From: an uncultured Alphaproteobacteria bacterium
GTDB lineage: Bacteria > Pseudomonadota > Alphaproteobacteria > CAAHEQ01 > UBA3637
Direction: 5' to 3'
DNA: 64,000 bases
Assembly: GCA_944392785.1 (NCBI GenBank)
Contig: CALXXW010000013.1
Span: 62,001 to 126,000 of the forward strand
Shown: positions 39,847 to 42,423 of the stretch, in pieces
Layout of the letters: each line of letters begins with the position of its first letter
Position numbering within the stretch: position 1 is the first letter of the stretch
Notes under the pieces: model-generated
Database searches by the model: none
What the model was told of the DNA's origin: nothing
Seen by the model: the letters and a program-made list of their open reading frames with translations, nothing else
Made by a program: the position numbers and the translations under genes

Positions 39847-39934
39847 GCGGATATGGCGGAATTGGTAGACGCAACAGACTTAAAATCTGTCGGAGATTTT
39901 CTCCGTGCCGGTTCGATTCCGGCTTTCCGCACCA
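39847..39934 (+). tRNA. tRNA-Leu (anticodon TAA)
   Basis: A class II tRNA of 88 nt including encoded CCA. The anticodon arm CAGA-CTTAAAA-TCTG gives TAA, the variable arm is long (CGGAGATTTTCTCCG) and the T arm has GGTTCGATTCC. The acceptor stem pairs except for one T-T mismatch at position 6. Confidence 0.95.
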
Positions 39935-40098: not shown

Positions 40099-42423
40099 TC
40101 AAAAAGAGCAATGATGCTTTGCAGCCAAATGATTGATTCCCTCTTCGGTCAATGCCGGAAGAGCACCAATATGGGATTTCATTTCCTTTAAAATATAGCA
40201 AATCTCATCATGTAAAACCCACCCATGAAAGCTGTTTTGCGGAACAATACCAGCCAAACTTTCATTCAGAAACCGATGAAAAGAGTTAAGTTGTTCAGTG
40301 GTATATCCTGCTTTTTTCTGACTTGACCCCCTTAACAGGAAAGATGTCGGAAATACGGCTATTTGTCCGCCTTTTAAAATAATTTCATGCCAAAAAGGTG
40401 TATCTTCAGCACTTGGAAAATGATCAGAATAGCGAATATTATTTTTTTCTAAAAAATCTCTTCGTATCATTGCAGAGGGGTGAAATATGGGTACATTAAA
40501 ATAAGTGGTAATCGCGGCATCTGACAGATCTTGGCTTGTTGGCTCATATCCTTCCAAGGCCTTGAGACTTAAAGCGTTCAACTTGTCCTTATCCATAACA
40601 TCAGTATATGGAGGAACCGCAGAACCGACAACGGTAATATCCGGGTGCTGTTCCAAAAAATCGACCTGAACCTGCAATCGAACGGGTATAGAAACATCAT
40701 CATCATCCATTCTAGCAATATATTTACCTCGAGCTGTTTCTATTCCTCTGTTTAGGCTATAGACCAATCCTCTATTTGTCTCATTAGTTAAGACAATGAC
40801 CCGTTCATCCCGTTGGGCATAACCTTTTAAAATCTTTGCCGTATTATCTGTTGAACCGTCGTTAATAACTATCAACTCAAAATTTTTATATGTTTGCGTC
40901 AGCATTGATTCCATCGCTTGAGATAATAATTTCTCACGATTATATGTAGATAATATTATAGAAACCTTCGGCTTTTTTACCTTGATACGATCTTTTTCAT
41001 CCGTATATTTGTAGGCTCGATATGTATAAAAGGGAGCATGCAGTTTTAACAACCATAACACATTACCTTTGTCATCTAACTCTGCCGCCGAAGCCTTTTT
41101 GCTTGAACCATAGGAGACAAAAAATGTACCGTTATCTGTCAGACTGACACCTCCCATTGTATCTGCAGCATAGGGTGTATTTTGTATGTTAACTTTTGCT
41201 ATTTTGTTTTTTTCATCCAGCTTAATTCGCATAATACGGGAGGTTGTCTGCCGGGGATAAAAATTTTTATTTTCAGAAGAAGAAAAACCTTTTGATTGAT
41301 TGTCAAACAGTAAAAGTTCATCCTGGCTCACAAATACAGGCATATGCTGACCGATAAAATACTCTGAAGATTCCAATCCAAAATCATCATGAAGGCCTCC
41401 CAGTGTCCATAAAATTTCACCCGTTTGACGGTCAATTTTAATCAATGACGATTGTGCAGCCAGAGACACAATCAAATTATTATCCTTTGGATCAATCAGT
41501 AGTGTATTATAGTGCAGATAATCTGAAAATTCTTTATTGCTAAAATGACAACGCTCTTGGGTCAAGCATGTATCGAATAGCTGAGGATGATCAGAGCTTC
41601 TCCAAAAAAAGATAACCTGACCATCTTTAATTTCTTCAATCACTAATTCAACTATTCTAATAGGCTCCCCTGTTTTAGGATGATAGACCTCTGTCCTGTT
41701 GTAGGTCGATAAAATATAATGATTCTTTCCAATTATCAAAGATTCGTGATTATCCACATAAGGTGATTTAAAATCTTTATATGACAACATATTTAACCGC
41801 TTCGTTTCACGGAACCTTTCATCCATAACGATAATACTTCCCCAGAGATAGTTCATGGGAGGAATGGGTTCTTCCTGCTGCATAAAGGTATTGACAACAC
41901 CACCGTCTTTTAATGCTGTTTGTTTAAAATCCGAAACACAGCCCCCTTCAGAATCATTGGTACGATAATATAGTAGTTTTCCTGATATATCAATAATATA
42001 AGCATATCCTTTATAGCGACAAGAAGCCTCAAACGGAGAAATATAAATTAACCCATTGGCAACTGGTTTAAATGCTGTCACCGTATAATCCGGCATCGAA
42101 TCCGGACGCAGAGAAATTGTATATTCTTTTTCCCCAATTTTAATGTTTAATACCTCACCCTTTTTTATGGCATCCAATGAAAAAAATTGCACTTGCTTTC
42201 CATATGTAATGACATTTGTCGTTAACGCCGAAACACTTTGGGGCGCATATTCATAAACATCCGATTCAAAGGGCGGCATTAAATCCATCTCATTTATTTT
42301 TAACACCGCCCCAGCTTCCTCCGTGAAAAAAATAAAATTACTTTCCGATTGAAGAAGTATTCCTCCTATAGTACCAAGAAAAGCAACTATAAAAACGGAT
42401 ATAAAATAGACAAAATACTTCAT
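40099..42423 (-). CDS. Arylsulfotransferase-like propeller fused to a family 2 glycosyltransferase
   Basis: Residues 1-24 form a signal anchor. Residues about 60-475 resemble the ASST family: a DNHESLI motif (H226), LHYNTLLIDP (H304), KIDRQTGEILWTLGG, IGQHMPVF (H360), LLLFDNQS, TSRIMRIKLD (R396) and a closing TYRAYKY. From 485 a GT2 domain begins (KVSIILSTYNREKLLSQAM, VINDGSTDNT, RMDDDD at 572-576). The first part would move sulfate between phenolic compounds in the periplasm, the second would use cytoplasmic sugar nucleotides, so the fusion poses a topology problem. It stands alone behind its own promoter. Confidence 0.82.
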   Translation of the reverse strand: MKYFVYFISVFIVAFLGTIGGILLQSESNFIFFTEEAGAVLKINEMDLMPPFESDVYEYAPQSVSALTTNVITYGKQVQFFSLDAIKKGEVLNIKIGEKEYTISLRPDSMPDYTVTAFKPVANGLIYISPFEASCRYKGYAYIIDISGKLLYYRTNDSEGGCVSDFKQTALKDGGVVNTFMQQEEPIPPMNYLWGSIIVMDERFRETKRLNMLSYKDFKSPYVDNHESLIIGKNHYILSTYNRTEVYHPKTGEPIRIVELVIEEIKDGQVIFFWRSSDHPQLFDTCLTQERCHFSNKEFSDYLHYNTLLIDPKDNNLIVSLAAQSSLIKIDRQTGEILWTLGGLHDDFGLESSEYFIGQHMPVFVSQDELLLFDNQSKGFSSSENKNFYPRQTTSRIMRIKLDEKNKIAKVNIQNTPYAADTMGGVSLTDNGTFFVSYGSSKKASAAELDDKGNVLWLLKLHAPFYTYRAYKYTDEKDRIKVKKPKVSIILSTYNREKLLSQAMESMLTQTYKNFELIVINDGSTDNTAKILKGYAQRDERVIVLTNETNRGLVYSLNRGIETARGKYIARMDDDDVSIPVRLQVQVDFLEQHPDITVVGSAVPPYTDVMDKDKLNALSLKALEGYEPTSQDLSDAAITTYFNVPIFHPSAMIRRDFLEKNNIRYSDHFPSAEDTPFWHEIILKGGQIAVFPTSFLLRGSSQKKAGYTTEQLNSFHRFLNESLAGIVPQNSFHGWVLHDEICYILKEMKSHIGALPALTEEGINHLAAKHHCSF

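Follow-up and report, generated by a model that had tools for sequence, protein, structure and literature searches.

A single gene in the window (the whole stretch of 64,000 nucleotides analysed), which comes from a gut alphaproteobacterium, joins an ASST-like beta-propeller to a GT2 glycosyltransferase. The fusion is real and has an ordinary evolutionary explanation, the joining of two exported parts; the parts themselves are unusual. The GT2 half belongs to what is apparently an undescribed glycosyltransferase family, whose members are predicted to be tethered to the periplasmic face of the inner membrane. In the explanation we favour, with a probability of about 0.48, the product is an exported periplasmic protein of two parts that would act jointly on a glycan. 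The features are as follows.

40099..42423, minus strand: complete ORF of the fusion, 774 aa, from ATG to TGA
42352..42423, minus strand: N-terminal signal anchor, residues 1–24 (MKYFVYFISVFIVAFLGTIGGILL); TM 5–23 by hydropathy, helix 2–24 in the AF2 model
42073..42336, minus strand: N-terminal beta-sandwich, residues about 30–117; seen from the strands in the model (pLDDT about 95)
41002..42063, minus strand: ASST-type beta-propeller, residues about 121–474; PF05935/PF14269, Foldseek to Cpz4
41512..41514, minus strand: His304, equivalent to AssT His356, kept (as is Asn306, equivalent to Asn358); alignments
41458..41460, minus strand: Ala322 codon, in the place of AssT Arg374; alignment to 3ELQ, 9KF4 and 85 sequences
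41344..41346, minus strand: His360, equivalent to AssT His436 (the sulfated nucleophile), kept; alignments
40972..41001, minus strand: short linker forming the fusion junction, residues 475–484; from the ends of stand-alone ASST-like proteins and the anchor/GT2 border of stand-alone GT2s
40264..40971, minus strand: GT2 (GT-A) domain, residues 485–720; PF00535, residue conservation, Foldseek
40108..40200, minus strand: C-terminal helical hairpin bracketed by C742 and C772; conservation in the anchored GT2 clade, helices in the model
39847..39934, plus strand: tRNA-Leu (UAA), convergent neighbour of the fusion gene; tRNA call

The gene is a single uninterrupted ORF of 774 codons on the minus strand (40099–42423), in an open frame of 791 codons with no internal stop. 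This agrees with a sequence-only reading made earlier, which had described one in-frame polypeptide behind a single signal anchor (there is one TM, residues 5–23, and no second) next to a tRNA. It had also called the gene more AT-rich than its neighbours, and the GC content is indeed 0.369, compared with 0.42–0.46 in mfd (the upstream neighbour, on the same strand), serS, the SPOR gene and the trkA-like gene. Its further hint of transfer has no support other than composition: GC3 is alike in the two halves (0.309 and 0.314, both below the neighbours), and the nearest relatives of both halves are in the same family. No att-site-like flanking repeat was found around the gene beside the tRNA-Leu, leaving integration at the tRNA unsupported, and viral contigs gave no match. 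The genes downstream of mfd vary between relatives, and the comparison shows no scar of an insertion and no locus that is conserved. One propeller relative is an exception to the same-family pattern: a gene 43% identical (L059:3937-5427) on a rumen MAG contig binned as Elusimicrobium, reflecting either transfer or mis-binning.

Pfam recognizes both halves. The propeller half matches PF05935 (residues 121–441, E-value 2.4e-22, 79.9 bits with a cut-off of 24.2) and PF14269 (residues 170–457, 1.2e-19, 71.3 bits, cut-off 27), and the GT2 half matches PF00535 (residues 488–656, 1.2e-36, 126.7 bits, cut-off 23.3). Arylsulfotran_N (PF17425) has no Pfam match on the N-terminal beta-sandwich. The sequence-only reading had proposed structure prediction of the two halves, and residues 1–479 and 480–774 were modelled separately with alignment-based AlphaFold (AF2). 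The first model (pLDDT 88) has an N-terminal helix, a beta-sandwich and a propeller, and its best Foldseek matches are 9kf6/9kf4, the Cpz4 sulfotransferase (E-value 1.6e-20, TM 0.64–0.67). The second (pLDDT 94) is a GT-A fold followed by helices and matches the glycosyltransferases TarP, SpsA, WrtF and K4CP. Pfam, AlphaFold and Foldseek thus confirm an ASST-type domain joined to a complete GT2.

The active site of AssT consists of His252, His356, Asn358, Arg374 and Thr501, with His436 as the sulfated nucleophile (PMC13426309). Residues were mapped by aligning a family profile to AssT (3ELQ) and Cpz4 (9KF4). The histidine motif reported by the earlier reading is present as His226, His304 and His360, together with Asn306; H226, the equivalent of AssT His252, is placed by the family alignment only. 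H226, H304, N306, H360 and R396 are invariant in a 12-member family alignment. The arginine motif it also reported was a mistake, as the position of AssT Arg374 is Ala322 (..VSLAAQSSLIKI..). Across 85 aligned ASST-type sequences this position is R in 62, G in 10 and A in 8; members of this bacterial order mostly carry Ala or Gly there, two of them retaining Arg. The same genome also encodes two canonical ASSTs, in which, judged by eye, Arg is retained in the motif (SGRH, TARF). Because of Ala322 we describe the propeller as ASST-like with an altered active site, not as a proven sulfotransferase; its capacity for the classical PAPS-independent transfer of sulfuryl groups may be compromised. The same genome has another Arg-less ASST-like gene, which a frameshift splits (L148:10090-11524, equivalent to G000:C13:142089-143523).

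Stand-alone ASST-like proteins are 470–495 aa long, most with their own N-terminal hydrophobic segment. ASST-like matches occur in 15 of 43 family genomes (about a third), although in some the match is a weak one to a canonical ASST; these 43 genomes served as the sample of both the family and the order. The propeller tree groups the order's sequences into a single set of 18 rows (support 98), which also takes in two Gastranaerophilales genes and the Elusimicrobium-binned contig. In at least four genomes of the order (L060, L064, L067, L069; the L064 copies of CysD/CysN look broken) Arg-less stand-alone propeller genes have CysD and CysN as neighbours, and in a fifth (L045) a CysN-like gene adjoins a propeller fragment. 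Gastranaerophilales L072 has a tandem pair of Arg-less ASST-like genes followed by CysD and CysN, and a TauE-type exporter gene is near propeller relatives in two cases. NCBIfam models recognize CysD clearly; the CysN proteins mostly score below cut-off. CysD/CysN were not found in the window or in the stretches of its own genome that were examined. The placement of the relatives beside CysD/CysN points to a role in sulfation. On the earlier suggestion that the propeller is not a sulfotransferase the evidence is divided: the missing Arg argues for altered chemistry or binding, whereas the kept histidines and the CysD/CysN neighbours of the relatives speak for sulfation.

The GT2 half has intact catalytic residues (D522, DxD at D573-D575/D576, and E673-D674). 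The proteins closest to it stand alone: after an opening of some 25–50 residues of the form MKK..-hydrophobic-..P they continue directly into the GT2. We collected about 50 such anchored homologues from the order's 43 genomes, 49 of which enter the counts below. The DxD and the ED aspartate are kept in 48–49 of the 49, and D522 too is conserved across the clade, so selection for sugar transfer is likely. On the GT2 tree the fusion falls inside a nine-row set whose members are all anchored (SH-aLRT 98), and being anchored or bare requires 3 changes over 69 rows versus 17 with shuffled labels. The genome carrying the fusion has six anchored GT2s scattered singly among housekeeping genes, and its ordinary GT2s (bare, or with C-terminal TMs) sit apart from them. 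A phylum-wide sample yielded no instance of the full anchored form; among those examined, the nearest GT2s from outside the order are bare. Term searches of open papers returned no description of a periplasmic GT2.

Four independent signs argue that the GT2 clade, and hence the fusion, lies outside the cytoplasm. One is the charge around the anchor, which averages +3.9 on the N side and +1.3 on the C side of the 49 homologues; the N side is the more positive in 46 and the reverse holds in 1. These values come from a simple script, not a trained topology predictor. In the fusion, K2 is on the N side and the 15 residues after the anchor carry acidic charges only, predicting an N-in/C-out orientation. 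Another is the conserved cysteine pair: Cys742 is kept in 48 of 49 anchored homologues versus 3 of 18 bare GT2s, and Cys772 in 46 of 49 versus none of 18. Overall Cys content fails to separate the two groups (1.0 versus 1.4 per 100 aa). The genome encodes a DsbA-like protein; DsbB was not found in it. The remaining signs are a lipobox (LSAC) in the N-terminal signal of one homologue (L164:531-1652, minus strand) and a module shared with exported proteins. Ordinary cytoplasmic GT2s of the same genomes lack the anchor, the charge bias, the Cys pair and the module.

This module, of about 60 aa (HxxWxD..C..C..IKWDxWGxExF), is common but not universal at the ends of anchored GT2s, and no Pfam family covers it. 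A profile built from GT2 sequences only, leaving out canonical ASSTs, matched the N terminus of a canonical ASST in the same genome (E-value 1.8e-19), whose signal peptide ends LMA-A. The same profile picked up an anchored protein of 108 aa and, at its C terminus, a polytopic DUF6311 protein. Relatives carry the module on further canonical ASSTs, on a GT6 glycosyltransferase and on a PM0188-type sialyltransferase. Among the matches listed, 17 of 17 module ORFs other than GT2s have a hydrophobic segment in the first 60 residues (a few are overlapping copies of one gene), and the signal peptides of the module-bearing canonical ASSTs look cleavable. The fusion has no such module and ends two residues after C772. 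Loci of the order with the module include L144:15298-17070, L143:14702-15028, L150:9891-11885, L290, L291, L293, L295 and L306.

The sequence-only reading held that one of the two domains must work in an unusual place. The GT2 does seem periplasmic, but so does its entire clade, and the conflict of compartments thereby seems to dissolve; with the clade already exported, the fusion would have displaced nothing. Many annotated homologues with a known cytoplasmic role, which that reading named as grounds for refutation, were not found. The GT2 nevertheless keeps a nucleotide-sugar signature. The periplasm is thought to lack nucleotide sugars, and bacteria are not known to have a supply of them there.

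The sequence shows an architecture of two joined families. The propeller half stops at the same point as stand-alone propellers (..YRAYKY); the P-x-V-S-I-I that opens the GT2 follows some ten residues on, directly behind the usual anchor site (junction peptide YRAYKYTDEKDRIKVKKPKVS). There is no in-frame start codon between residues 458 and 504, and the GT2 has no N-terminal anchor of its own, the anchored propeller (anchor residues 5–23) being in its place. The fusion would thus have arisen inside this bacterial order from two anchored proteins, an ASST-like propeller and a GT2, both from families already exported. The GT2 would have lost its start and anchor and now be tethered through the propeller, with everything staying periplasmic. 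At 41000-40990 (minus strand) the junction carries an out-of-frame ATGAAAAAGATC / ATGAAAAAGAT (MKKI..stop), which could be what is left of the start codon that the GT2 lost. It is only suggestive: such 9-mers occur about 0.2 times per kb and strand, and it was noticed after the fact.

The searches found the fusion in one genome only. No second ASST-GT2 fusion turned up among 80 loci drawn from 84,980 species genomes, from 385 genomes in the class and from 398 in the phylum, nor was a fused form found among the stand-alone propeller relatives in the 43 family genomes; term searches of open papers gave no description of one. The fusion is known from one 25-contig assembly without read support, which counts against the favoured explanation, as do the Ala at the Arg374 position, the negative results for DsbB and for CysD/CysN described above, and a nucleotide-sugar signature in a compartment believed to have no such sugars. 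An assembly error joining two genes, raised as a possible refutation, could draw on this draft state and the lack of a second genome with the fusion. We consider it highly improbable, as the gene is mid-contig, GC3 is equal on both sides, no long repeat lies at the junction, and the two parts meet in frame precisely at the border of each domain, leaving the GT2 without its start and anchor, which one base error cannot produce. A recent, decaying chimera, formed by a deletion that joined two exported genes and having no selected joint function, is improbable to a lesser degree. It would suit a fusion seen once, the frameshift in the other Arg-less propeller gene, the absence of the C-terminal module common in the GT2 clade, and the resemblance of the out-of-frame ATGAAAAAGATC to a remnant GT2 start. 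Against it stand 774 codons free of lesions, intact GT2 catalytic residues, Cys pair and propeller histidines, and equal GC3 in both halves.

Two other readings bear on how the protein works. The anchor could be N-out/C-in, with the GT2 in its usual cytoplasmic place and the propeller a cytoplasmic domain. The nucleotide-sugar signature would fit, and eukaryotic ALG5-type GT2s, in which a single N-terminal TM is compatible with a cytoplasmic GT2, offer a precedent. The orientation is very unlikely given the charge bias in 46 of 49 homologues, the acidic C flank of the fusion, a near-invariant Cys pair that bare GT2s do not feature, the lipobox in one homologue and the module in common with signal-peptide proteins. 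A more serious rival, still distinctly less than probable, keeps the periplasmic topology and makes the GT2 the sole enzyme, the propeller being a non-catalytic platform that binds or docks a sulfated or aromatic glycan group. The change of Arg to Ala in the fusion, and to Ala or Gly in most of the clade, fits a platform, as does the retention of Arg in the corresponding motif of the genome's two canonical ASSTs (by eye). The invariance of H226, H304, N306, H360 and R396 and the CysD/CysN genes adjoining propeller relatives argue for chemistry instead. Together with the kept GT2 catalytic residues, those neighbours lead us to prefer a shared role in making a glycan of the envelope that is both sulfated and glycosylated.

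In the favoured, joint-enzyme reading the product would be a single-pass inner-membrane protein with its N terminus inside and the remainder in the periplasm, a two-headed cell-envelope enzyme acting on one surface glycan. The GT2 domain would add a sugar; the propeller, with its His nucleophile and without the Arg that holds the sulfuryl group, would handle a sulfuryl group or a sulfated donor or acceptor. What the sequences show directly is the architecture, the kept and missing residues, the phylogeny and the gene neighbourhood of relatives; topology, sulfation and substrate are inferred from these, and the glycan may be sulfated or glycosylated. One possible periplasmic sugar donor is an undecaprenyl-phosphate sugar. 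The genome has genes resembling a GtrB/ArnC plus GT-C type pair, and a GT2 with two C-terminal TMs, of the type that produces polyprenyl-phosphate sugars, adjoins the DUF6311 protein; lipid-linked sugars may therefore be available in the periplasm. A broader proposal, tentative and with the odds against it, is that the order has a periplasmic, Golgi-like glycan workshop of anchored GT2, GT6 and PM0188-type sialyltransferase proteins and ASSTs sharing the module, using a donor new for periplasmic GT-A enzymes, with the fusion as a member bifunctional in sulfation and glycosylation.

Compared with AssT (E. coli CFT073, 3ELQ) and Cpz4 (caprazamycin biosynthesis, 9KF4/9KF6), the fusion is alike in propeller fold, export signal and the equivalents of His356, Asn358 and His436 (H304, N306, H360), with the further conserved His226. 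It differs in having Ala for Arg374, no PF17425 match on its sandwich, a C-terminal GT2 domain, and an anchor that looks uncleaved where theirs is a cleavable signal peptide. GT2s of the SpsA/TarP/EpsE/TuaG type, the best Foldseek and HMM matches, share the GT-A fold, D522, DxD and ED, but their known members act in the cytoplasm, whereas the fusion's clade is predicted to be anchored N-in/C-out and has a Cys-pair hairpin after the catalytic domain. Eukaryotic Golgi type II glycosyltransferases have the layout predicted here, with a short cytoplasmic tail, one TM, a far-side catalytic domain and a disulfide; this is an analogy only, and we claim no homology past the GT-A fold. K4CP (chondroitin polymerase), TarS and RmlT also combine a GT2 with a second domain, and none pairs it with an ASST propeller.

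If the topology is true, a whole GT2 clade with intact catalytic residues is on the periplasmic side, and the donor question is directly testable. It would suggest that uncultured gut bacteria have surface glycans to which sulfate and sugars are added beyond the cytoplasm, and would explain the odd fusion as a topology-preserving union of two exported parts. The exported-glycosyltransferase set is a more interesting lead than the fusion itself.

ASST-type and GT2 genes are also neighbours elsewhere. In Arthrobacter sp. UM1 (L118:4758-6834) 4 bases separate an ASST-type gene from the GT2 gene that follows it on the same strand, and three relatives belonging to one genus have an ASST-like gene and a bare GT2 gene arranged tail to tail (L042, L049, L050, L063).
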